This document shows, piece after piece, positions 1-21,589 of a stretch of DNA of 42,724 bases; within the stretch, counting starts at the first letter, position 1, and every line of letters starts with the position of its first letter. The notes under the pieces were generated by a model that saw only the letters and a list, made by a program, of their open reading frames with translations, was not told the DNA's origin and did no database searches. A program made the translations under genes and the position numbers. The stretch is from Meiothermus sp. (lineage in GTDB: Bacteria > Deinococcota > Deinococci > Deinococcales > Thermaceae): NCBI RefSeq assembly GCF_025060375.1, contig NZ_JANXCG010000045.1, positions 1-42,724 of the forward strand, in the 5' to 3' direction.

Positions 1-642
1 GGCAAGAGCACCCTGCTGCGCCTTATGGCGGGGCTGGTCTGGCCCCAGGGGGGAGAAGTGTGGCTGGAGGGCCGGCGGCTTGCGGAGTACCGGAGCTGGG
101 AGAGGGGCCAGCGGATTGCCTTTCTTCCCCAAACGGGCCCCTACCCCGAGGACCTCACGGTGGAGGAGGTGGTCTACCTGGGCCGAACCCCGCACCTGGG
201 CCTTCTGGGGCGGCCCGGCCCGGCCGATGCCGAGGCGGTGGCCTGGGCGATGGAGCGGACCGGCGTGGTTGGGCTTCGGCACCGGCTGCTCCCCACCCTT
301 TCGGGGGGTGAGCGGCAGCGGGTCCTGCTGGCTCGAGCCCTGGCCACCCGCCCCCACTTCCTGCTCCTGGACGAGCCCACCAACCACCTTGACCTGCACC
401 ACCAGGCGGAGTTTTTGGACCTCCTGGCAGGCTTGCGGGAGGCTGGGGTGGGTGTTCTGACCGTGCTGCACGACCCCAACCTAGCTCAGCGGGCCGACCG
501 GGTGGCCTTTATGGCCGAAGGGCGCCTGCTGGCCCTGGGGTCTCCCGCCGAGGTGCTGAGCCAGGAACTGTTGCAGGGGGTGTACGGGGCGCATGTGCGG
601 GTCCGAAGCGTAGAGGGGCGGCCGGTGGTGCTCATAGGATAG
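1..642 (+). CDS. ABC transporter ATP-binding protein, BtuD/FecE type (5' end outside window)
   Basis: Nucleotide-binding subunit of an importer for cobalamin, heme or siderophores, acting on the cytoplasmic face of the membrane. The frame is open from base 1, which already encodes the end of the Walker A loop (GKSTLL). After it come the Q-loop (FLPQ), the signature LSGGERQR, Walker B (FLLLDEP), the D-loop (NHLD) and the H-loop His (VLHD). About 213 residues are visible; roughly 40 N-terminal residues are missing. The short C-terminus without a regulatory domain and the LSGGE(R)QR-NHLD pattern fit the BtuD/FecE family. Cobalamin loop-assembly genes follow directly, so vitamin B12 or cobinamide is the likely cargo, with permease and binding protein expected to the left. 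Substrate is inference; family membership is clear. Confidence 0.88.
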   Translation, partial: GKSTLLRLMAGLVWPQGGEVWLEGRRLAEYRSWERGQRIAFLPQTGPYPEDLTVEEVVYLGRTPHLGLLGRPGPADAEAVAWAMERTGVVGLRHRLLPTLSGGERQRVLLARALATRPHFLLLDEPTNHLDLHHQAEFLDLLAGLREAGVGVLTVLHDPNLAQRADRVAFMAEGRLLALGSPAEVLSQELLQGVYGAHVRVRSVEGRPVVLIG

Positions 643-650
643 GAGGGTAG

Positions 651-986
651 ATGCAGGCCAGCCTGAAGGTGACCCCTAGCCTGCTGGTGCTGGACCTGGG
701 CGAGGTGCGGCGGCTGGTGACGCAGGACGGCCCCCGGCTGGCCCGCTACGTGGCGGTGGTGCGGGCGGCGCGGCCTGGCTGCGTGCGGGGGGGGCGCAGG
801 GCGGGCCATGCCCACCTGATGCGAGCCGGACTGCCTCCCGGCGAAACCCTCCTCTACACCCTGCCTGAAGACCCCCTCAACTTTGAGCAGGAGGGGAGCA
901 CCCTGCGCCTTCCGGGGCTGCGGGTTTACCTGGCGGGCCCGCCGGAGTTTGTGGAAACCCCCCTCTACGCCTGGGTGGAGCCGTGA
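651..986 (+). CDS. hypothetical protein, 111 aa, in cobalamin operon
   Basis: I do not recognise this protein. It starts at ATG with a GGAGG ribosome-binding site a few bases upstream, 8 bp after the ABC ATPase gene, and its stop overlaps the GTG start of cobC by 4 bp, so it is co-translated with the cobalamin genes. No signal peptide or membrane segment is visible. The N-terminal half has alternating hydrophobic residues (SLLVLDLGEV), the middle has a basic glycine-rich patch (CVRGGRRAGHAH) with one Cys and two His, and the C-terminal half looks like short beta strands. A role in handling a corrinoid or its import is suggested only by position. The stable operon context argues against a spurious reading frame. 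Confidence 0.72.
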   Translation: MQASLKVTPSLLVLDLGEVRRLVTQDGPRLARYVAVVRAARPGCVRGGRRAGHAHLMRAGLPPGETLLYTLPEDPLNFEQEGSTLRLPGLRVYLAGPPEFVETPLYAWVEP

Positions 987-1516
987 AGGAGGTGTGGTTG
1001 GTACGCCACGGGCAAACCCTTTGGAACGCCCAGGGGCGGCTCACTGGCTGGGCGGATGTCCCGCTCTCGCCTTTGGGGAGGGAGCAGGCCCGGCGGCTTG
1101 GGGTGTGGCTGCAGCGGGAGCGCTTTGACCGGGTGGTGGCCTCCGACCTACAGCGGGCGGTGGAGACCGCCCATCTGGCCTACGCTGAGCCGGAGGAGAG
1201 GCTTTGGGCCTTGCGAGAGATAGATTTTGGAGAGCTGGACGGCCTCCTTTGGGCCGAGCTGCCCGAGGAGCACAGGCAGGCCCTGCTGCGGTTTGACGGC
1301 TTTCAGGCCCCTGGAGGGGAGTCGGTAGAGGGGTTCCGCTCCCGGGTCCATGCGGCCCTCTCAGCCCTGCCCGAGGGGCGGCTGTTGGTCTTCACCCATG
1401 GGGGAGTGCTGCGCCTGGTGCTGCGCGAGCTGGGGCAGGAAGCTTTTTTGCCGCCCTGTTCGGTGGTGGGAGTAGATTGGGAAGCCCAGAGGCTGCTCTT
1501 TGTGAGGGAGGGCTAG
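983..1516 (+). CDS. cobC: histidine phosphatase, probable alpha-ribazole phosphatase CobC
   Basis: Member of the phosphoglycerate-mutase-like histidine phosphatase family, 177 aa. The catalytic phosphohistidine motif RHG is at residues 8-10 (LVRHGQTLWN), followed by the family sequence GWADVPLSPLG. The acid/base region is EIDFGELDG near residue 77, and the second active-site His lies in FTHGGVLR near residue 137. CobC removes the phosphate from alpha-ribazole-5'-phosphate (or from adenosylcobalamin-5'-phosphate) in nucleotide-loop assembly. The family also contains unrelated phosphatases, but the position between the ABC ATPase and cobU-cobT-cobS supports CobC. It starts at a GTG that overlaps the previous stop by 4 bp and shares one base with the next start. 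Confidence 0.82.
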   Translation: MKEVWLVRHGQTLWNAQGRLTGWADVPLSPLGREQARRLGVWLQRERFDRVVASDLQRAVETAHLAYAEPEERLWALREIDFGELDGLLWAELPEEHRQALLRFDGFQAPGGESVEGFRSRVHAALSALPEGRLLVFTHGGVLRLVLRELGQEAFLPPCSVVGVDWEAQRLLFVREG

Positions 1517-2016
1517 TGTTGGTGCTGGTCACCGGTGGGGCGCGGGCGGGCAAGAGTCGGTTTGCCCAGGCCTTGGCCCAGCGGCTGGGGGGGGATGGGG
1601 TAAGCTTTCTGGCCACTGCGGAGCCCCTAGATGAGGAGATGCGGGAGCGTATCCTGCAGCACCGGCGGGAGCGGCCCTCCGCATGGGAGACCCTGGAGGT
1701 GCCGCTCGAGGTTCCCCAGGCCCTCCGTCGGGCCGGCCACGGGGTGGTGCTGCTGGACTGCCTTACCCTTTGGGTCTCCAACCTCCTCCTGAGGGGCCGG
1801 GAGGTGCGGGAGGAGGTGGAGCGGCTGCTGGAGGCTGCGCGCGGTAGCGGGAAGACCTTGGTTGTGGTGAGCAACGAGGTGGGCATGGGCCTGGTGCCGG
1901 AGAATCCCCTGGGCCGCCGCTATCGCGATCTTCTAGGAGCGGCCAACCAACGCCTAGCCCAGGAGGCCCAAGAAGTCTACCTGGTGGTGGCTGGCCTTCC
2001 CCTTCGGCTGAAGTGA
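1516..2016 (+). CDS. cobU: adenosylcobinamide kinase / adenosylcobinamide-phosphate guanylyltransferase
   Basis: Bifunctional CobU, about 166 aa, which phosphorylates adenosylcobinamide and then transfers GMP to give adenosylcobinamide-GDP. The N-terminal P-loop reads TGGARAGKS (residues 6-14). A His suited to be the guanylylated residue is at about position 49 (RILQHRRERP). Further family blocks are LLDCLTLWVSNLL and SNEVGMGLVPENPLGR. The reading frame continues upstream to an ATG at 1477, but that stretch lies inside cobC and has no family resemblance. The GTG at 1516, overlapping the cobC stop in TAGTG, puts the P-loop at the expected distance; TTG at 1519 is an alternative. It sits in order with cobC, cobT and cobS. 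Confidence 0.92.
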   Translation: MLVLVTGGARAGKSRFAQALAQRLGGDGVSFLATAEPLDEEMRERILQHRRERPSAWETLEVPLEVPQALRRAGHGVVLLDCLTLWVSNLLLRGREVREEVERLLEAARGSGKTLVVVSNEVGMGLVPENPLGRRYRDLLGAANQRLAQEAQEVYLVVAGLPLRLK

Positions 2017-2024
2017 GGAACAGT

Positions 2025-3074
2025 ATGGTTCGTGTGAAACCCGTATCGAGAGAGTGGCTGGAGCGGGCCAGAGCCCACCACGACCAGCTCACCAAACCCA
2101 CGGGCTCGCTTGGCTTTCTGGAGGAGCTGGGGGTGCGGCTTGCGGCCATTGGGCAGACCCTGAGACCCAGGCTCGGGCCCGGGGCGGTGGTGGTCTGCGC
2201 AGCCGATCACGGCGTGGTGGCCGAGGGGGTTTCGGCCTACCCTGCGGAGGTGACCGCCCAGATGTTGTTGAACTTTGCCCGAGGTGGGGCGGCCATCAAC
2301 CAGATTGCCCGGGCTTGCGGGGCGGTGGTGCGGGTGCTGGACGTGGGGGTGGCTTCCGCGGTGGAGGCTCCTGGAGTGGTCTGCCGGAAGGTGCGTCCAG
2401 GCAGCGGCAACATCGCCCGGGAGCCGGCCATGACCCCAGAGGAGGCCAGGGCTGCCCTCGAGGCGGGCATGGAAGCGGCCCGCGAGGCCGTCCGGGAGGG
2501 GGCTACCCTGCTGGCAGCGGGGGACATGGGCATCGGCAACACCACCGCGGCAGCGGCGCTGAGCGCGGCCCTGCTGGGGCTTCCTGCGGAGGCGGTGACC
2601 GGACGGGGTACGGGGGTGGACGAGGCGGGGTATGCGCGGAAGCTGGGGGCCGTCCGGGCTGCCCTGGCTCGAGCAGAGGCGCGGCTGGGAGGGTTTTCCC
2701 GGGCAGAGCCGCTGTCCATCTTGGCTGAGTTGGGCGGGCTGGAGATCGCAGCGGCCGCGGGGGTCTTCCTGGCCGGGGCCGAGGCTGGGCTGCCCCTGGT
2801 GACCGATGGGTTTCCGGTGACGGCAGGGGCCTTGGTGGCGGTTCGGATGGTGCCGGAGGTGCGCGACTACCTCTTTGCCGGGCACCGCTCCTTGGAACCA
2901 GGGCACGCCCATCAGCTCGAGGCCCTGGGGCTCAGGCCCATCCTCGAGCTGGACATGCGGCTGGGCGAGGGCACCGGGGCGGTGCTGAGCTTTCCCGTGC
3001 TTCGGGCTGCAGCGGAAGTGGTCTCGGGGATGGCCACCTTTGCTGAGGCCGGGGTTTCCGGAAGGGAGGGGTGA
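2025..3074 (+). CDS. cobT: nicotinate-nucleotide--dimethylbenzimidazole phosphoribosyltransferase
   Basis: CobT, 349 aa, close to the usual family length of about 350. It makes alpha-ribazole-5'-phosphate from nicotinate mononucleotide and the lower-ligand base. Visible family blocks: LTKPTGSLG near the N-terminus, CAADHGV (substrate pocket), GDMGIGNTTAAAA, and near the C-terminus LGEGTGA, which carries the catalytic Glu. The GTG at 2013 overlaps the cobU stop and would add four residues. ATG 2025 is preferred because GAGG ends 6 bases before it. The gene is followed after 3 bp by a small cysteine-rich gene and then cobS. A 468-codon antisense frame crosses it but is only a shadow of its codon bias. 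Confidence 0.95.
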   Translation: MVRVKPVSREWLERARAHHDQLTKPTGSLGFLEELGVRLAAIGQTLRPRLGPGAVVVCAADHGVVAEGVSAYPAEVTAQMLLNFARGGAAINQIARACGAVVRVLDVGVASAVEAPGVVCRKVRPGSGNIAREPAMTPEEARAALEAGMEAAREAVREGATLLAAGDMGIGNTTAAAALSAALLGLPAEAVTGRGTGVDEAGYARKLGAVRAALARAEARLGGFSRAEPLSILAELGGLEIAAAAGVFLAGAEAGLPLVTDGFPVTAGALVAVRMVPEVRDYLFAGHRSLEPGHAHQLEALGLRPILELDMRLGEGTGAVLSFPVLRAAAEVVSGMATFAEAGVSGREG

Positions 3075-3077
3075 GGC

Positions 3078-3290
3078 ATGGACCTGCGGGAAGGGGAGGA
3101 CTACTACCTCGAGGGGGGGTTGCTGGTCTTCACCGGGAGCTACCACCGCAAACGGGGTTACTGCTGCGGTTCGGGCTGCCGCCACTGCCCCTACCCCAAG
3201 GCTGTGCAGGCCGAGGCCATGCGCTTGCGCCGAGAGGGGAGGCCCATCCGGAGCCGGGCAGAGTTTGAGGACCTCTTCGGACAGGTTTGA
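3078..3290 (+). CDS. small cysteine-rich DUF5522-type protein
   Basis: A 70-aa protein with a compact cysteine cluster, CC-x3-C-x2-C, at residues 29-37 (GYCCGSGCRHCPYP), followed by a short basic helix (EAMRLRREGRP). The motif is the one I associate with DUF5522, a family of small proteins of unknown function; the four Cys and neighbouring His could bind zinc or an Fe-S cluster. It begins at ATG 3 bp after cobT and ends one base before the cobS start, so it is very probably co-transcribed and co-translated with the cobalamin genes. Whether it contributes to corrinoid metabolism or is only carried along cannot be told from sequence. No signal peptide or membrane segment is visible. Confidence 0.8.
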   Translation: MDLREGEDYYLEGGLLVFTGSYHRKRGYCCGSGCRHCPYPKAVQAEAMRLRREGRPIRSRAEFEDLFGQV

Positions 3291-3291
3291 G

Positions 3292-3984
3292 ATGCGCCCC
3301 TTCTGGCTAGCGGTTGGCTTTCTTACCACCTTTCCCACACCTCCCCTGGGCCAGGTGAGGCCCGAGGAGATGCGGGCGGCCACGGCCTTCTACCCAGCGG
3401 CGGGCTACCTGATCGGGGCGGCGCTGGCCCTGGCGGCCTGGCTGACCGCGGGGCTGCCCGAGGGGCTGCGGGGGGGGATTCTGCTGGCGGTCTGGCTGGC
3501 ATCCACGGGGATGCTCCACCTGGACGGCCTGCTCGACACCGCCGATGCGCTTCTCGCCTCAAAGCCGCCCGCTGAGCGGCTGCGCCTGCTGGCCGATGTG
3601 CACGTGGGCAGCTTCGCCTTTGGGGTGGGGTTTGTGGTGCTTCTGCTCAAGTGGCAGGCGCTGGCCGCTGGTCCCTCTTTCGCCCTGTTGCTGGCCCTGC
3701 CAGCCATTGTGCGCTTTGCGGTGCTGTTGCCCATGAACCTCTTCCCCGCGGCCAAGGCGGATGGCCTGGGGGCGAGAAGCCGCGGAGGCTGGCCCTTTCT
3801 GGCGTTTTTGCTGGCCCTCCCGGCCCTGCTGGCCCTCCCTTGGGTTGCCCTTGCGGTGCTCCTGGGCCTGCTGCTCCTGGCCTACTGGGCGGCCAGACGC
3901 TTGGGGGGGGGCCTTACGGGCGATGTGTACGGTGCCCTTGTGGAGCTTGGGGAGCTGCTGGGGCTTTTGGTCTACCTGGTCTGA
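3292..3984 (+). CDS. cobS: adenosylcobinamide-GDP ribazoletransferase (cobalamin synthase)
   Basis: CobS, 230 aa, an integral membrane enzyme that joins adenosylcobinamide-GDP to alpha-ribazole (phosphate) in the last part of B12 assembly. The sequence is mostly hydrophobic helices. The metal-binding family motif HLDGLLDTADAL is present around residues 68-79, followed by LADVHVGSFAFGVG, and the C-terminus has the family block GLTGDVYGALVELGE. The frame is open further upstream, but ATG 3292 starts the recognisable N-terminus (MRPFWLAVGFLTTFP) and lies one base after the preceding stop. Together with cobC, cobU and cobT it completes nucleotide-loop assembly. Nothing recognisable for de novo corrin synthesis is present in this window. 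Confidence 0.94.
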   Translation: MRPFWLAVGFLTTFPTPPLGQVRPEEMRAATAFYPAAGYLIGAALALAAWLTAGLPEGLRGGILLAVWLASTGMLHLDGLLDTADALLASKPPAERLRLLADVHVGSFAFGVGFVVLLLKWQALAAGPSFALLLALPAIVRFAVLLPMNLFPAAKADGLGARSRGGWPFLAFLLALPALLALPWVALAVLLGLLLLAYWAARRLGGGLTGDVYGALVELGELLGLLVYLV

Positions 3985-5409: not shown

Positions 5410-6051
5410 CTACACATCGGCACCCGGCCTGTCGGTGAACTCGCCGGCCACCACCACCCGGCCCCCTTCCACCTTGACCGGGAGCTGGGGTACTGGCTTG
5501 GGCACGGGGCCGCCCACCACTCTGGCCTGGTTGTAGATGTCGTACTCCCCGCCATGGCAGGGGCAGCGCCAGAGGCCATTCTGCCACTGGCTTACGGTAC
5601 AGCCCAGGTGCTTGCAGATTGCGGAGTAAGCCAGCACCCCTTCGGGGGAGGCCAGCTTGCGGGTTTCCGGGCTCATCCTAGCGGGGTCGGCCAGAATGAC
5701 CATGATGGTGTTGGTGATGAGGTCTTTTTTGACCACGTTCTGGGGGCTTCTGGGAAAGGCGAGGATGAAGGGAATGGGTTCCCTCTGAGCGGCCCGAAGG
5801 TCGTCCAGGGTGATTTCCTGGTTGGCCTTGGGGCCGGTAGCAAAGACCAAGACATCCCCCACGGCGACCGGTTCCTTGCTGGGCACCTCTTCTTTCCGGG
5901 GAATAAGGCTTGCGCCCACCCAGAGGGCGGAGAGGAGGGTGGCGCCGGCGCTCACCCCCAGGGCGGCCTGTAGAACAGCCCGCCGGGTGGCGTGGGCCTG
6001 GGGGTCTTCCTCGTGGTGGTGTGAATGTGCGGTGGCTTCGTGGTCTGCCAT
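5410..6051 (-). CDS. fbcF: Rieske [2Fe-2S] iron-sulfur subunit of the bc complex
   Basis: Rieske protein, 213 aa. A His-rich cytoplasmic N-terminus (HSHHHEED) precedes an RR pair and hydrophobic segment (residues 23-50, RRAVLQAALG) that resembles a Tat-type signal anchor. Cluster box I is CKHLGC (146-151) and box II is CPCHGGEYD (163-171), giving ligands Cys146, His148, Cys163 and His166 and a Cys151-Cys165 disulfide. The usual Ser of CPCHGS is Gly here while the following Tyr (170) is kept; loss of that Ser is known to lower the cluster potential. Nine bases separate it from fbcD and nine from fbcB, each start with its own GGAGGAA site. Confidence 0.94.
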   Translation of the reverse strand: MADHEATAHSHHHEEDPQAHATRRAVLQAALGVSAGATLLSALWVGASLIPRKEEVPSKEPVAVGDVLVFATGPKANQEITLDDLRAAQREPIPFILAFPRSPQNVVKKDLITNTIMVILADPARMSPETRKLASPEGVLAYSAICKHLGCTVSQWQNGLWRCPCHGGEYDIYNQARVVGGPVPKPVPQLPVKVEGGRVVVAGEFTDRPGADV

Positions 6052-15744: not shown

Positions 15745-16464
15745 ATGTTCAGCGTGATCGTGCCGACCTTCAACCGCCCGGGGCTGCTCCTCAGGGCCCT
15801 GCGCTCCCTGCGCCTTCAACTTTACCCCGATTGGGAGGCGGTCGTGGTGGACGATGGGGACGGCGCCGGGCTTCGAGCTGCCCAGGAGCTGGGTGAACCG
15901 CGCGTTGTCGCGGTGCGCAGCCAGGGTAAGGGCCAGGTGGCGGCCCGCAACACCGGGCTTTTGCACGCCAGAGGGGAGTACATTGCCCTTCTAGACGACG
16001 ACGACTGGTGGCAGGACCCCACCCACCTGTATCGGGTGGCACGGGCCCTGCGGGCCCAGGAGGGCCTGGTCTACCGGGGGGGGTACTTGGTGTATGAGCG
16101 GGATGGGCTCGAGCTAGAACGCATCCCCTTTGACCACAGGGCTACCCCTGAGGCGCTGCGCAAGGACAACCTGATTTTGGCCTCGGGGGTGGCCTACCCG
16201 CGCCGCCTGCACGATGAGCTGGGTCCCTTTGATCCGGAGATGGACGATTACTGGGACTGGGACTGGTACCTGCGGGTGGTGGGGGCGGGGTATCCCCTGC
16301 TCGGCCTCCCGGGCCGGGGGGTGGTGGTGAGCGTTCACGGGGGCAACATGTCCTATGCGGCCCGCCTGGAGGAGCGAAAGAGGAACCTCGAGCGGCTTTG
16401 TGCCAAGCACGGCCTGGTGGGGGTAGAGCTCAAGGACCACCGCATCATCGCAGGGGCGGCCTGA
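15745..16464 (+). CDS. family 2 glycosyltransferase
   Basis: GT-A fold glycosyltransferase, about 239 aa, transferring a sugar from a nucleotide donor. The N-terminus FSVIVPTFNRPGLLLRAL is the classical GT2 start, VVVDDGD is the first donor-binding Asp pair, and LLDDDDWW (82-89) holds the DxD metal site. A later segment, DYWDWDWYLRV, is the usual acceptor-side block. No membrane segments are visible, so it is cytosolic or peripheral. The frame is open 19 codons upstream to 15688, but ATG 15745 starts the conserved strand. No clear Shine-Dalgarno site precedes it. Acceptor and pathway are unknown, and no other polysaccharide genes are adjacent. Confidence 0.86.
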   Translation: MFSVIVPTFNRPGLLLRALRSLRLQLYPDWEAVVVDDGDGAGLRAAQELGEPRVVAVRSQGKGQVAARNTGLLHARGEYIALLDDDDWWQDPTHLYRVARALRAQEGLVYRGGYLVYERDGLELERIPFDHRATPEALRKDNLILASGVAYPRRLHDELGPFDPEMDDYWDWDWYLRVVGAGYPLLGLPGRGVVVSVHGGNMSYAARLEERKRNLERLCAKHGLVGVELKDHRIIAGAA

Positions 16465-16516
16465 GCCCTGACATGGGGATGACCTTGAGCCTAGAGTATT
16501 CTGGCTGGGAGAACCC

Positions 16517-17470
16517 ATGCGAAGGTTTCTTAGCCTCTTTCTGCTCCTAGGCCTAGCCCAGGCCCAGACCCTCACCCTCTACACCTCGGAGGTCCTGACC
16601 AACGTCAACCCCATGATAGAACTTTTCAGGAGGGCCAACCCCGGGGTTGGCGTCCAGGTTTTTCGGAGCGGCACGGGAGAGGTGATTGCCCGGCTTCGCG
16701 CTGAGCTCGAGGCCGGCAACCCCCAGCCCGACCTCCTGTGGGTGGCCGACGAGACCTTTTTTCGCGAGCTCGCAGGGGCCAGCCGCCTCAGACCGGTGCG
16801 GGCCACCACCCCAGGTTTTCCGGTGAGGTTCGCCTACCAAGGCGGGCTCTACTACGAGGTGAGGCTCCTCTACAACGGCATCGCGGTGAACACCCGCCGG
16901 CTGGGCAGCCTTCCTGAGCCCGCTGCTTGGCGCGATCTATTGCGCCCCGAGTACAAGGACCTGGTGGGCATGCCCAACCCCAATTTTTCCGGAGCCGCCC
17001 TCTCCACCTTGGGTACCCTCACCCAGCGCTTTGGCTTTGGCTTCTTCGAACAGCTTCGGCGCAACGGGATGAGGGTAGAGCAGTCCAACCCGGTTTTGCA
17101 GCAGAAGCTGGCCGAGGGGCAGTACGCCCTGGCCATCATCACCGATTTTGGCATCCGCGACCTGGTCCGCCAGGGAGCCCCTCTCAAGATGGTCTACCCC
17201 CGCGATGGAGCTATTCTGGTGCCCACGCCCATCGGTATCCTATCAACCAGCAAGAACCCCGCCTTGGCTGAGCGATTTGTGCGCTTTTTGCTCTCGCCGG
17301 AGGCCCAAGCCCTCTTCGCCCAGCAGGGTTACATTCCGGTGGTGGCCTCGGCCCCCCGTCCGGCCGGGGTGAGCGGCGAGGTGCTGGCTATTCCCTCGGC
17401 GGCAGACTACATCCAGGCCAACCGCCAAAGCCTCCTTTCCCAGTTCAATGAGCTTTTCAACCTGCGCTAG
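16517..17470 (+). CDS. ABC transporter substrate-binding protein, iron(III)/FbpA-like
   Basis: Periplasmic binding protein, 317 aa, with a short signal peptide (MRRFLSLFLLLGLAQA). The mature protein reads as a class of extracellular binding proteins that includes FbpA/FutA: LTLYTSEVLTN, RSGTGEVIARLRAE, DLLWVADETFF, MPNPNFSGAALSTLGT and TPIGILSTSKNPALAERFVRF. A Tyr-rich stretch (YQGGLYYEVRLLYN) could contribute metal ligands, but ferric-ligand positions cannot be assigned with confidence. A fused permease and an FbpC-like ATPase are encoded downstream, with a CbiM-like gene between. ATG 16517 has a GGGAG site. Iron is the default cargo for the family; 2-aminoethylphosphonate or thiamine carriers are related alternatives. 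Confidence 0.85.
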   Translation: MRRFLSLFLLLGLAQAQTLTLYTSEVLTNVNPMIELFRRANPGVGVQVFRSGTGEVIARLRAELEAGNPQPDLLWVADETFFRELAGASRLRPVRATTPGFPVRFAYQGGLYYEVRLLYNGIAVNTRRLGSLPEPAAWRDLLRPEYKDLVGMPNPNFSGAALSTLGTLTQRFGFGFFEQLRRNGMRVEQSNPVLQQKLAEGQYALAIITDFGIRDLVRQGAPLKMVYPRDGAILVPTPIGILSTSKNPALAERFVRFLLSPEAQALFAQQGYIPVVASAPRPAGVSGEVLAIPSAADYIQANRQSLLSQFNELFNLR

Positions 17471-17791
17471 AGGGCTTTTCTGTCCGGTCCACAGGGTTTG
17501 TGGAGCGGTCTTAGGATTTTGTGGTATCCTGAGCGGGACAACTGCGGTGGGCTCGGACTCCCGATACCGCACGCGGCTCCCTCGTGACCGAGCACGGTGG
17601 GATGCCTTTTTAATCCCTTCCCCAAAGCAAAAACCCCCTCCTGCGATTGTTAAGTTGCCGTTCCCGCGTCAGCACTGCGGTGTACACATCCTATACGGCA
17701 CCTCTGTGCTGCTCCACCACAACCGCAATCGGGCGTTTTCCCCCGTCCTGTGCGTACAGCTTGTGGTTAAATCAGGGTTGAGGAGGTTGGT
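17471..17791 (+). other. gene-free 321-bp stretch with several hairpins before the CbiM-like gene
   Basis: No convincing coding sequence on either strand. TCCACA/TGTGGA (17488-17504) could be a weak terminator hairpin after the binding-protein gene. An extended -10 like TGG-TATCCT ends at 17530 without a clear -35. Further inverted repeats are TGCGGT/ACCGCA near 17532-17570, CTGT-GCGT-ACAG (about 17748-17759) and ACCACAA (17716-17722) with TTGTGGT (17761-17767), which ends shortly before the ribosome-binding site of the next gene. This could be a long structured leader. I looked for cobalamin and NiCo riboswitch cores and did not find them. A decayed insertion is the alternative. Confidence 0.4.
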
Positions 17792-18469
17792 ATGCACATT
17801 GAACCTGGGGTGGTTCAGGGGGCCAAAGTCTATCTTGGCTATGCGACAGGGGCCGTCGGGCTGAGCCTCGCTGTAAGGGCGGCGGTTCAGCACGGGCGGA
17901 CCCAAGGCGTGGTTCCCTTGGCGCTGCGCAGCTTTTTGGCCGCGCTGGTGGTGTTTGTTTGCTTTGAGGTGTTGCCCCACCCTCCGGTGGGGGTCTCGGA
18001 GGTGCATCTGATTTTGGGCACCACCATTTACCTGCTCTTTGGGTTGGGGCCCGCGGCCGTGGGCCTGGCGATGGGTCTGCTGGTCCAAGGGCTTTTCTTT
18101 GCGCCCACCGACCTACCCCAGTACGGCATGAACGTTACCACCCTGCTGTTCCCGCTTTTTGCTGTGCATCTGGTGGCCCGGCGGATCGTTGCGCCTGGTA
18201 CCCCCTACGTCGAACTGCGCTACGGGCAGGTCCTCAGGCTTTCGGCGACCTACCAGGGGGGCATTGTGGCCTGGGTGGCCTTTTGGGCGCTCTACGGTCA
18301 TGGCCTCACCTCGGAAAACCTGGCCCAGGTCGCTTCGTTTGGGGCGGCCTACTTGCTGGTGCTGCTGGTGGAACCCTTGGTTGACCTGGCGGTGCTGGCA
18401 GCGGCCAAGGCGTTGCACGGGCTGCGCGGCTCCTCTTGGGTCCAGCCCCGCCTCTACGAGGCCGCCTAG
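17792..18469 (+). CDS. CbiM/NikM-like energy-coupling-factor metal permease
   Basis: A 225-aa membrane protein with six or so hydrophobic helices. The N-terminus MHIEPG resembles the MHI start of CbiM/NikM, where the amino terminus and His2 form the Co/Ni site; further His candidates are at 63 and 72 (LPHPPVGVSEVHLILG), the region where CbiM has its other ligands. These features suggest an S-type component for cobalt or nickel. The usual partners CbiN, CbiQ and CbiO are not encoded here. Instead it lies between a binding protein and the permease/ATPase of an iron-type importer. GAGGAGG is present upstream of the ATG. Family call is fairly safe, cargo is inference. Confidence 0.78.
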   Translation: MHIEPGVVQGAKVYLGYATGAVGLSLAVRAAVQHGRTQGVVPLALRSFLAALVVFVCFEVLPHPPVGVSEVHLILGTTIYLLFGLGPAAVGLAMGLLVQGLFFAPTDLPQYGMNVTTLLFPLFAVHLVARRIVAPGTPYVELRYGQVLRLSATYQGGIVAWVAFWALYGHGLTSENLAQVASFGAAYLLVLLVEPLVDLAVLAAAKALHGLRGSSWVQPRLYEAA

Positions 18470-18508
18470 TGGCGGGGTCTTGGGCCTGATGGGGGCTTTG
18501 GGCTTGGC

Positions 18509-19972
18509 ATGGCCGCTCCGTTCTGGTGGCTTCTCTGGCTTGGCGTGGCCTCGCCACTGCTGGTGCTGGCTGCGCGAGGGCTGGGGAACCTAAGCCTGGT
18601 GCCCAAGGTGCTTGACCTGGCGGGGGCCTCCCTCGCCCTGGCCTTGGCGGGCAGCCTTCTCTGCCTGCTGGTAGGGGGTGGGCTGGCCTGGCTGGCCTTT
18701 CGCGCCCGGCTGCATCCGGGGTGGGACGTGCTTTTGCTGTCGGCCTACCTCGTGCCCCCCTTTGTGGGCGCCTTGGGTTTTCTGTACGCCCTGCAGATGC
18801 TCGGCCTGCGGCCGTATGGGGTGGGGGGAATCCTCCTGGCCTGGACGGCCCACTACGCGCCCATGGCCTACCTGTTGTTGCGGCCGGCCCTGGAGCACCG
18901 CCTGGCCCCCCTGCTGCTGGCCTGTGAGGCCCACGGGGTGCGGGGTGGGCGGCGCCTGCGGGCCCTCCTGCCGCCGGTGCTTCCGGCGCTGGTGGCGGCC
19001 TTTGGGGCGCTTTACCTCACGCTCCTGGGCAACTTTGGGGTTCCTGCGGTGCTGGGGCTGCCGGCACAGGTGTACACCCTACCCACCCTGGCCTACAGCC
19101 GGCTCTTCTCCCCGGCCAGCCCTGACCCTCTGGGGGAAGCGGCTGCGGTGGGGCTTTTGCTGGGGTTGCTGGCCCTTCCGGCGGTCCTCCTTCACAGCGC
19201 CCCGGTGGGGGAGCCTGCCCTCCGGCCGCTGCGGCCCCGGTGGCCCTGGGCGGCCCGGTTGGGCTTTCTCCTCTTCGCTTTGCTGGGGGTGGGCCTTCCC
19301 CTGGTGGGTCTACTCCAGCGGGCCCTGTTCAACACCTTCAGCGGGGCTTTTGAGCCGGCTTTCTCCGCTGCTTTGGCGTTGCCCTTGGTGCGCCAGGGTT
19401 TGCTGAACTCGGTGGGTTTGGCCCTGCTGGCAACCGGCCTTTTGCTGATGCTGGGGCTTCTGCTGGCCCCTTGGCCCGAGGCCGCCCGTCGGTTGCGGCG
19501 GCTCTTGGACTTGCACTACCTGCTGCCCGGTACGCTGCTGGCCATCGGGCTGATCCTGGTTTTCGCGCCCACGCCCATCTACGCCACGCCCTGGCTGTTG
19601 CTCCTAGCCTATCTGCTCAACTTTGCGGCCCTGATGCTTCGGGCGGTGGAGGTGGGCCTCGAGGGAGGGGTGGAGCGTTTGGTGGGGGTGGGGCGGCTTT
19701 TTGGTTTGGGGCCGCGCCGGGCCTGGTTCCGTATAGGCTATCCCCTGCTTTGGCCCTATCTGGCCGCTGGGGTGTTCTTGGTGATGCCTTTGGCCCTGGC
19801 TGAGCTAACCCTCTCGGCCCTTCTTTACGCCCCTGGGGCTGAGACCCTGGGGGTGGCAGTTCTCTCTGCCCTGAACGGGGGGCTTTTCCGTGAAGCGGCC
19901 GCCATAGGTCTCCTCCTGATGGCCTTTTCCCTGCTACTTTTGCTGCTGCCGCGCCGGGGGGTGGTGGCCTGA
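18509..19972 (+). CDS. ABC transporter permease, fused two-domain FbpB/ThiP type
   Basis: Integral membrane permease, 487 aa, with about twelve hydrophobic helices in two homologous halves, as in FbpB, SfuB and ThiP. Each half has an ATPase-contact (EAA-like) loop: EAHGVRGGRRLRALLPPVLPA in the first and VGRLFGLGPRRAWFRIGYPL in the second. It should form the channel for the binding protein at 16517 with the ATPase encoded 14 bp downstream. The CbiM-like gene ends 39 bp upstream. ATG 18509 has only a weak G-rich ribosome-binding site and no alternative in-frame start is available in the gap. Confidence 0.87.
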   Translation: MAAPFWWLLWLGVASPLLVLAARGLGNLSLVPKVLDLAGASLALALAGSLLCLLVGGGLAWLAFRARLHPGWDVLLLSAYLVPPFVGALGFLYALQMLGLRPYGVGGILLAWTAHYAPMAYLLLRPALEHRLAPLLLACEAHGVRGGRRLRALLPPVLPALVAAFGALYLTLLGNFGVPAVLGLPAQVYTLPTLAYSRLFSPASPDPLGEAAAVGLLLGLLALPAVLLHSAPVGEPALRPLRPRWPWAARLGFLLFALLGVGLPLVGLLQRALFNTFSGAFEPAFSAALALPLVRQGLLNSVGLALLATGLLLMLGLLLAPWPEAARRLRRLLDLHYLLPGTLLAIGLILVFAPTPIYATPWLLLLAYLLNFAALMLRAVEVGLEGGVERLVGVGRLFGLGPRRAWFRIGYPLLWPYLAAGVFLVMPLALAELTLSALLYAPGAETLGVAVLSALNGGLFREAAAIGLLLMAFSLLLLLLPRRGVVA

Positions 19973-19986
19973 GCCTTGGGGTGGGG

Positions 19987-20958
19987 ATGCTGCGGATAGA
20001 GGGGCTTACCAAAAGCTTTGGCAAGGCGGGGGTCCATCAGGTTTCCCTGGGGTTGGGTCGGGGCCAGATCTTGGCCCTTCTGGGGGCCTCGGGCTCCGGC
20101 AAGACCACCCTCCTGAACCTGGTGGCGGGGTTGCTGCTTCCCGACTCGGGGCGGATTTTTCTGGATGGGGAGGATGTGACCAACCTGCCCCCTGAGCGGC
20201 GCGGGCTGGCCTACGTGTTTCAGGACCATGCCCTTTGGCCTCACCTGACGGTCCTGGAACACCTTCTTCTGGTCATGAAGGAGCCCAGGAAGGAGGAGGC
20301 CCTGGCCTTGCTGGAGCGGGTAGGCCTTTTGGGGCTGGAGAGGCGTAGGCCGCACCAGCTCTCTGGGGGCCAGAAGCAACGGGTGGCCCTGGCTCGAGCC
20401 CTGGCGGCGAGGCCGCGGCTCCTGCTCCTGGACGAGCCCTACTCGGCCCTGGACCCCGTGCTTCGGGAGGAGCTTCGGCTTGAGGTGGCCTCCCTGCTGC
20501 GGGCTGAAGGGGTGGGTGCCCTGCACGTGACCCACGACCCCGACGAAGCCCTGGCGGTGGCCGATCGGGTAGCGGTTCTGGAGGGGGGTCGCATCGTGCA
20601 GGAGGGGCTCCCTGCGGAGGTCTATGCCCGGCCCAACAGCCTGGCGGCTGCTCGGGCCTTTGGCCGGCTCAACCTCCTGCCTGTAGAGGTGCGCGGGGGG
20701 CAGGTGGGGTGGGATGGGGTGGTCTGGCCGGTGGAGGGGGTGCAGGAAGGCCCGGGGTTCCTGGCCTTCCGTTACGAGGAGCTGGTGCCCAGCCCTGCGG
20801 GGCTTCTGGCCCGGGTGGAGGCCAGCTATGACGGCCGGGGGGAGCGGCTCTGCCGGGTGCGCCTTGGCTGGGGGGAGGCGGTGGTCAAGCTCGAGGCTCT
20901 GCCCGGGCAGGAGGTTCGCCTGGCACCGGTCGGCCTGCTTCGGGTCTTTCCCCGCTAA
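19987..20958 (+). CDS. ABC transporter ATP-binding protein, FbpC/PotA type
   Basis: ATPase subunit, 323 aa. The nucleotide-binding domain (about 1-235) has Walker [11 protein letters not shown]-loop FQDHALWP, signature LSGGQKQR, Walker B LLLLDEP with D-loop SALD, and the H-loop VTHD. A C-terminal extension of about 90 residues ([31 protein letters not shown]) looks like a TOBE-type regulatory domain, typical of iron, spermidine and maltose importers. GTG 19981 is an alternative start two codons upstream. It ends the transporter set with the binding protein at 16517 and the permease at 18509. A promoter for infC follows immediately. Confidence 0.9.
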
Positions 20959-20971
20959 GGCTTGCTCGGCG

Positions 20972-21000
20972 TTGCGGCTGGCTGGGCTTTTTTGTAGACT
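20972..21000 (+). promoter_or_regulatory. promoter of infC
   Basis: -35 TTGCGG (20972-20977), 17-bp spacer containing a run of six T, -10 TAGACT (20995-21000). Transcription would start near 21007, leaving a leader of about 28 nt before the ATC start codon. Confidence 0.5.
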
Positions 21001-21034
21001 CAGGGCGTAGGCCTAAGCCTGCGGAGGTGAAGCT

Positions 21035-21589
21035 ATCAAAGATGTACCGGTGAACGAGCGAATTCGGGTGCGTCAGGTCCGCCTGATTGACGAGAACGGC
21101 GTGCAAATCGGAGTGGTGGACACCCGTGAAGCGCTGCGGCTGGCCCAGGAGCGGGAGTACGACCTCGTGCTGGTATCGCCCAACTCGGTCCCTCCGGTAG
21201 CCCGGTTGCTGGACTACGGCAAGTGGCGCTACGAGCAGCAGCAGGCTGAGAAGGAAGCTCGAAAGAAGGCCAAACGCACCGAGCTGAAGAGCATGAAGCT
21301 GCGCCCCAAAATTGAGGCCCACGATTACAACACCAAGCTCTCCCACATCCGGCGTTTTTTGGAGGAGGGCCACAAGGTGAAGGTCACCATCATGTTCCGA
21401 GGGCGTGAGCTGGCCCATCAGGAGCTGGGCTACCGGCTTTTGGAGCGCATCGCCAAGGACCTGGAAGGGATAGGTTTTGTGGAGATGCGGCCCGAACTCA
21501 TGGGGCGGGATATGAACATGGTCATGGCTCCGGGGTCCAAGCCTTCGGCGCCCATAACCCCGGCGAGCCCCGCCGGAAGCCCTAGCTGA
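21035..21589 (+). CDS. infC: translation initiation factor IF-3 (ATC start)
   Basis: IF3, about 184 aa, which binds the 30S subunit and rejects wrong start codons. The N-domain has VRQVRLIDENGVQIGVV and VARLLDYGKWRYEQQQ; after a Lys-rich linker the C-domain has RPKIEAHDYNTKLSHIRRFL and GHKVKVTIMFRGRE. A GTG lies at 21050, but an in-frame ATC at 21035 gives the family N-terminus (I/M-KDVPVNERIRVRQ) and has a perfect GGAGGTGA site ending 4 bases upstream. Rare AUU/AUC starts in infC are known to support autoregulation by IF3. rpmI and rplT, which usually follow, are absent; the 3' end overlaps convergent clpA by 8 bp. The C-terminus has a Pro/Ser/Ala tail. Confidence 0.93.
   Translation: MKDVPVNERIRVRQVRLIDENGVQIGVVDTREALRLAQEREYDLVLVSPNSVPPVARLLDYGKWRYEQQQAEKEARKKAKRTELKSMKLRPKIEAHDYNTKLSHIRRFLEEGHKVKVTIMFRGRELAHQELGYRLLERIAKDLEGIGFVEMRPELMGRDMNMVMAPGSKPSAPITPASPAGSPS

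Follow-up and report, generated by a model that had tools for sequence, protein, structure and literature searches.

The subject of this analysis is a gene for a CbiM-like metal permease that lies inside an ATP-binding cassette (ABC) importer operon in a 42,724-nt stretch of the genome of a Meiothermus sp. (the window; its own genome is referred to as G000). We consider it probable that the gene was acquired laterally, that its product is a cobalt-type permease working on its own, and that it was inserted into an older ABC operon unrelated to it, with which it is probably co-expressed. The set consists of four intact open reading frames, all on the forward (+) strand. A gene for an extracytoplasmic solute-binding protein of SBP_bac_6/PhnS type (SBP; 16517-17470; Pfam SBP_bac_6, E 7.5e-29) is followed, after a 321-bp intergenic gap (17471-17791), by the CbiM-like gene (17792-18469; PF01891, E 2.6e-17). 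Next come a fused two-domain ABC permease (18509-19972; BPD_transp_1, E 4.8e-07) and a PotA/PhnT/FbpC-type ABC ATPase (19981-20958; ABC_tran, E 2.2e-38), whose start codon is GTG, with an in-frame ATG at 19987; together with the SBP these two form the older ABC set. The reading frames and Pfam matches thus bear out the gene order proposed in a first-pass annotation of this DNA, and no cbiN, cbiQ or cbiO gene lies among the four, as had been stated there: the neighbours of the CbiM-like gene are an SBP, a BPD permease and a PotA-type ATPase. The same annotation had taken the set for an iron-type importer; the order holds, but the 321-bp gap separates the SBP gene from the CbiM gene and ‘iron-type’ describes a family resemblance only.

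The CbiM-like protein scores 63.8 bits with PF01891 (cut-off 23.1), covering model positions 1-198 of 205. Its MHIEPG start coincides with the first ATG/GTG/TTG of the open frame, so the protein begins with Met-His; both this start and His63/His72, noted earlier, are present. According to PMC6828968, residues 1 and 2 of NikM/CbiM participate in substrate binding. We aligned 57 sequences, comprising the proteins of the window, of M. luteus (G007) and of the third carrier genome (G014) together with those of 54 of the best 80 loci described below. Met1, His2 and His72 are invariant throughout and His63 is conserved in at least 90% of the sequences. Altogether 47 columns are invariant, and the full-length similarity and shared invariant residues place the protein in what we refer to as the MHIEPG subfamily. 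The profile built from this alignment reaches NikM2 (4m5b) weakly (E 0.055), placing MHI on MHI and His72 on His67, the latter being, as we take it, a metal ligand of NikM2.

The predicted structure agrees with this assignment. The AlphaFold2 model (mean predicted local distance difference test score 89.3; 66 over residues 1-10) superimposes on 4m5b from residue 1 onwards with a Z-score of 20.3 and a root-mean-square deviation of 2.8 over 199 residues, followed by 4m58 (Z 20.0), CbiM 5x3x_M (Z 17.5) and vitamin S components (Z at most 12.5); beyond these, only lower-Z proteins of other kinds were among the matches. The top Foldseek ranks are occupied by the same NikM/CbiM entries. With M1/H2/H72 invariant, the protein combines the S-component fold with the additional Met-His metal segment at its N terminus. 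It shares with the CbiM/NikM S components of energy-coupling factor (ECF) cobalt/nickel transporters (4m58/4m5b; CbiMQO 5x3x) the PF01891 family, the fold from residue 1, the Met-His start and the histidine aligned with His67. It differs from those systems in that the window genome has no CbiQ and the set no CbiN or CbiO gene, and in having 16% structural-alignment identity to NikM2.

A search with PF02361 (CbiQ/EcfT), which matched 10 of 14 control genomes, gave no match in the window genome (99.83% complete, 2.39 Mb) or in the other two carriers of the gene, G007 and G014. In the three carriers, at least, there is thus no recognisable T component able to serve the CbiM-like protein, and a CbiQ partner elsewhere in the genome, named in advance as a result that would overturn the initial idea, did not turn up. 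CbiN and CbiO genes are absent beside CbiM in the set, no genome-wide search having been made for either. A precedent for transport without CbiQO is provided by CbiM and CbiN, described in a section of PMC7689651 as the minimal proteins for cobalt transport.

We then compared the gene with its relatives in other bacteria. A contig scan of genomes yielded 445 relatives, of which the best 80 were analysed with flanks of up to 6 kb (some shorter). These 80 are 56-69% identical to the window protein over the full length, apart from the M. luteus locus (L057), and stem mainly from Alpha-, Beta- and Gammaproteobacteria, with three from Mycolicibacterium and one from Sulfurimonas. A cobalamin riboswitch (RF00174, above gathering score) lies directly upstream of the CbiM-like gene in 36 of 45 non-Meiothermus loci; by batch the counts were 11/11, 9/11, 6/11 (the M. 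luteus locus left aside) and 10/12 (with two plasmid loci), and some of these loci are near-copies. The nine negative loci are L060, where a riboswitch lies 5.5 kb away, L067, L072, L098, L114, L116, L120, L121 and L134. Among the neighbours of CbiM are a CobW gene (L100), a tetrapyrrole methylase gene (L064) and, on an Acidovorax plasmid (L137), an annotated B12 operon. Nitrile hydratases are iron or cobalt enzymes, and in Brenneria and Mycolicibacterium genes for their subunits precede CbiM at a distance of no more than about 1 kb (L069, 4167-5889; L114, 3565-5052; L120, 4317-5668; L121, 4510-5667); a riboswitch search that covered L067, L114, L120 and L121 found none there. Taken together, the riboswitches and the B12, CobW and nitrile hydratase neighbours point to cobalt.

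Clustering of the neighbour reading frames revealed several corrin-pathway proteins, as judged by reading their sequences, and no recurring CbiN, CbiQ or CbiO neighbour. Ten neighbour proteins were examined individually: six (from L056, L060, L098, L116, L117 and L128) have no B12 or metal link or belong to no family, and three constitute the ABC set of L058 discussed below. When 35 non-Meiothermus host genomes (covering 35 of the 80 loci) were searched with PF02361, 19 gave no match. The proteobacterial stand-alone genes, annotated as ‘energy-coupling factor ABC transporter permease’ or ‘cobalt transporter’, share the 56-69% identity and Met1/His2/His72 with the window protein; they differ from the Meiothermus copies in their riboswitches and, in several cases, in their proximity to B12 genes, whereas the Meiothermus copies lack a riboswitch and are housed in an ABC operon. 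The best explanation of these data is that the CbiM-like protein belongs to a widespread subfamily of stand-alone permeases for cobalt, possibly also nickel, that have no dedicated CbiN, CbiQ or CbiO. Two alternatives had been proposed at the outset, and the one by which the protein works alone has gained from the lack of CbiQ in the three carriers and from the mostly stand-alone state of the subfamily elsewhere. In gammaproteobacteria, a cyanate lyase gene was seen downstream of CbiM at two loci, neither with a riboswitch (L072, 3073-3654; L134, 6925-7365).

The history of the locus was traced through orthologues of the permease (at least 60% identity), which are present in 14 of 18 Meiothermus genomes. 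The other 13 loci were retrieved and the window genes mapped onto them; those of G005 and G007 are split over contigs, and G005 comprises the SBP-permease end only. The best copy of the SBP is 82-94% identical to that of the window in 11 of the 13, and 76% and 62% identical in the remaining two. Only G000, G007 and G014 have a CbiM gene between SBP and permease, so that 11 of the 14 orthologous loci are without it; in the whole phylum, the 57-row profile detected CbiM in 3 of 111 genomes. Nine of the CbiM-less Meiothermus loci, the closest ones, have a single SBP gene. Upstream, SurE and a glycosyltransferase gene are common to eight of the 11 CbiM-less loci, G013 having the glycosyltransferase alone and G017 and G001 neither. 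The carriers also differ downstream: in the window, G007 and G014 the ATPase gene is succeeded by one for IF3, which was not found within 0.8-1.2 kb past the ATPase in the eight close CbiM-less loci with that side in reach. A tree built from SBP and permease unites the three carriers (support 0.82), so a single insertion suffices to explain the distribution. Confinement of the gene pair to one strain, the other outcome named beforehand as a refutation, did not occur, since CbiM and permease are conserved in three species; the arrangement is real but looks like one insertion. Two tandem, diverged SBP genes precede the same permease, with no CbiM, in G017, G001, G030 and G020, the last two being other genera (tandem SBP loci L047, 3077-4987; L048, 3416-5295; L049, 3527-5397; L050, 3083-4972).

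The spacing of the genes varies among the carriers. From the SBP stop to the CbiM start there are 321 bp in the window, 59 bp in G007 and 50 bp in G014, and the CbiM stop precedes the permease start by 39 bp in the window and by 55 bp in G007, while in G014 the two codons overlap (TGATG). These short or overlapping CbiM-permease junctions make joint expression with the permease likely. The ratio of nonsynonymous to synonymous substitution rates (dN/dS) of CbiM among the three carriers is 0.14-0.16, indicating purifying selection and falling within the range of the SBP, permease and ATPase genes (0.07-0.21); G+C content is similar as well, which argues for a functional, long-settled gene.

The three Meiothermus CbiM proteins form one clade in the 57-row tree (SH-aLRT 99), nested in a 10-row set (SH-aLRT 97) that otherwise consists of seven pseudomonadotal rows; a riboswitch is present at each of the five closest among them (L064, L070, L083, L085 and L128). 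The topology is most naturally read as a transfer from Proteobacteria, with the reservation that the root is arbitrary and that the sequences come from the best 80 loci. We propose that one ancestor of the three Meiothermus species received the gene from a proteobacterium, without its riboswitch, and that it landed between the SBP and permease genes of the older ABC operon, where it is now probably co-expressed with permease and ATPase. At its outer face the protein would bind Co2+ through the Met1 amino group at the N terminus together with His2 and His72, and its S-component fold would itself carry the ion across, without ATP. The SBP, permease and ATPase would import a separate, possibly organic, substrate.

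What the older importer carries was considered from its SBP. The best NCBIfam matches of the protein are 2-aminoethylphosphonate-type models, far below cut-off. Among solved structures, proteins named as iron binders come first (3wae, 2.7e-17; 4elo; 8x1a; 4r72, 5.8e-16), the 4r72 series presumably binding sugar phosphates, and a pyridoxal-phosphate binder is next (6wce, 8.3e-16). The NHYYV stretch of the Thermus iron-binding protein TtFbpA, containing a Tyr-Tyr pair that we take to be the iron ligands of FbpA, aligns with TDFGI in the window SBP, and 17 aligned Thermaceae SBPs have D-F/Y/H-G at this position. The label ‘iron-type’ thus describes a family resemblance and does not show that iron is the substrate. 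The set shares its SBP, permease and PotA-like ATPase families with FbpABC/AfuABC/PhnSTUV-type importers and differs from them in missing the curated NCBIfam cut-offs in all matches shown and in the iron-motif position; an organic substrate is possible.

The other initial alternative was that the CbiM-like protein contributes metal selection to the classical importer, as a metal-selecting membrane subunit energised by the SBP, permease and ATPase. Such an arrangement, which we regard as quite improbable, could account for the shared position of CbiM, flanked by SBP and permease in each carrier, for its tight or overlapping junction with the permease, for the purifying selection on it and for the lack of CbiQ in the three genomes. 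The importer is nevertheless found without CbiM in 11 of 14 orthologous loci, and an ABC set is rarely seen beside CbiM elsewhere. L058 alone of the 79 non-Meiothermus loci has an SBP and an ATPase related to those of the window (tblastn E 1e-8) on the same strand as CbiM, and there a cobalamin riboswitch (5424-5632) separates the ABC set from CbiM (start 5680). Several other loci have ATPase-like matches of 29-44% identity with no SBP match. In Brenneria L067 an ABC set (an ATPase, two permeases and an SBP_bac_11 protein, with a TOBE_3 domain among its families) adjoins CbiM on the opposite strand, and L069, with reading frames of the same sizes, probably has an opposite-strand ABC set too. 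The window SBP, moreover, shows no Tyr-Tyr at the iron-motif position. The same low probability attaches to the detailed version, a chimera of two importer architectures in which a PotA-type ATPase and a two-domain permease drive a captured ECF-type S component. We therefore rejected the hybrid importer as the best reading, since the importer set exists without CbiM and CbiM elsewhere without it; most likely the CbiM-like protein and the older importer are not one machine, and CbiM most likely owes its place there to an insertion that was retained for the expression it affords. Still less credible is a group II S component that relies on an ECF T/A module whose genes lie at another site in the genome: the S-component fold would suit it, but it is largely refuted by the PF02361 search, negative in G000, G007 and G014 with positive controls in 10 of 14 genomes.

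A change of metal in Meiothermus, with the permease still standing alone but now transporting nickel or manganese/zinc instead of cobalt, seems unlikely, though less so than the two previous alternatives. It would be in keeping with the negative CbiC search for corrin synthesis and with the lack of riboswitches at the Meiothermus loci; the metal-site residues and the remaining sequence are, however, close to those of riboswitch-controlled proteobacterial proteins, and users of nickel are scarce too (urease in 0/18 Meiothermus genomes, NiFe-hydrogenase-family matches absent from G000 and G007 and below cut-off in G014). Several observations weigh against our preferred reading of a laterally acquired, stand-alone cobalt-type permease. 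The NCBIfam equivalog ‘cobalt transporter CbiM’ is missed by a wide interval (best 23.5 against a cut-off of 172 bits), which makes the protein a distant branch, and no cobalamin riboswitch is present at any of the three Meiothermus CbiM loci. With CbiC, urease and NicO each in 0/18 genomes, a need for cobalt is not demonstrated in the genus. At least one PF02361 match occurs in 16 of the 35 other host genomes, whose completeness is not given. The direction of transfer was read from a quick tree, rooted arbitrarily at its midpoint, that includes 54 loci out of the best 80 (of 445). Finally, the gene has been kept at the same position in all three species, and together with the TGATG overlap in G014 and likely joint expression this may have functional value.

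The first-pass annotation had also suggested that the protein provides cobalt for a salvage pathway encoded at the left end of the window, where a partial ABC ATPase, a CobC-like phosphatase, CobU, CobT and CobS are encoded on the + strand (25-3984). The B12 genes lie 12.5-14 kb from CbiM, with unrelated genes between. Cobinamide salvage needs no free cobalt, as salvaged cobinamide already contains it, and CbiC, a family of corrin-ring synthesis and the only one of the pathway searched, had no match in the 18 Meiothermus genomes, the Thermus control being matched. The suggestion is thus doubtful and the B12-salvage link of CbiM weak. As to other uses of cobalt or nickel, NicO was, like urease, found in none of the 18 genomes, and the NiFe-hydrogenase family was found in nine of them at E 0.001; the carriers having no match or one below that cut-off, it does not correlate with CbiM. 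A search for nitrile hydratase gave 0/18 and, as it matched no control genome, is uninformative.

The 321-bp gap of the window was inspected separately. About 283 bp of it (17474-17756) have no counterpart in the gaps of M. luteus and G014. Rfam gave no match at gathering score on the window, including none to the cobalamin riboswitch, and only matches of E 1.9 or worse at 16400-21100; the gap folds no better than its shuffles (z -0.75), 22 of 100 of which equalled or surpassed it, and a hidden riboswitch was rejected. A relict second SBP was also rejected: tblastn of the second SBPs of G017, G001, G030 and G020 against the window gap and the gaps of nine CbiM-less Meiothermus loci gave chance matches only (best E 1.1). 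Nor is the gap a repeat, as it has no second copy in the genome; an 18-base piece of it was absent from a database of viral contigs. A promoter scan of 16400-21100 returned a single promoter-like site, at 16468-16497 ahead of the SBP gene, and terminator-like sites in this region were near chance (11 against a mean of 7.8, standard deviation 3.3). Farther upstream, a gene for a DctP-type binding protein (PF03480; 13793-14884) of the tripartite ATP-independent periplasmic (TRAP) kind is flanked by DnaJ and SurE and has no TRAP permease gene adjoining; the same three neighbours are present in M. luteus (L038).

On Sinorhizobium meliloti pSymB a stand-alone CbiM-like gene lies behind its own cobalamin riboswitch (L136, 5739-6681). 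The same replicon encodes CbtJKL, reported as a cobalt importer in the portion of PMC12239276 consulted. Like the set in the window, CbtJKL is a classical ABC importer, reported for cobalt in the cited part of PMC7689651; it differs in that CbtJ is described there as BtuF-like, the window SBP being FbpA/PhnS-like, and in that the S. meliloti CbiM-like gene is separate. The predicted cobalt transporters CbtC-CbtG, as far as an extract of PMC2667541 presents them, may include the solitary CbiM subfamily. Our literature search found no account of this subfamily or of its Meiothermus setting, which is no proof of novelty.

A puzzling mixed operon thus becomes a probable case of lateral insertion, and it cautions against inferring joint function from gene order conserved in a few related species. 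It also draws attention to solitary CbiM-like proteins as a large subfamily, usually under the control of cobalamin riboswitches and often found in genomes without a CbiQ-type T component. A thermophilic CbiM copy from a genome without a T component would be a convenient protein in which to study how an S-component fold might import an ion in the absence of an ECF module.

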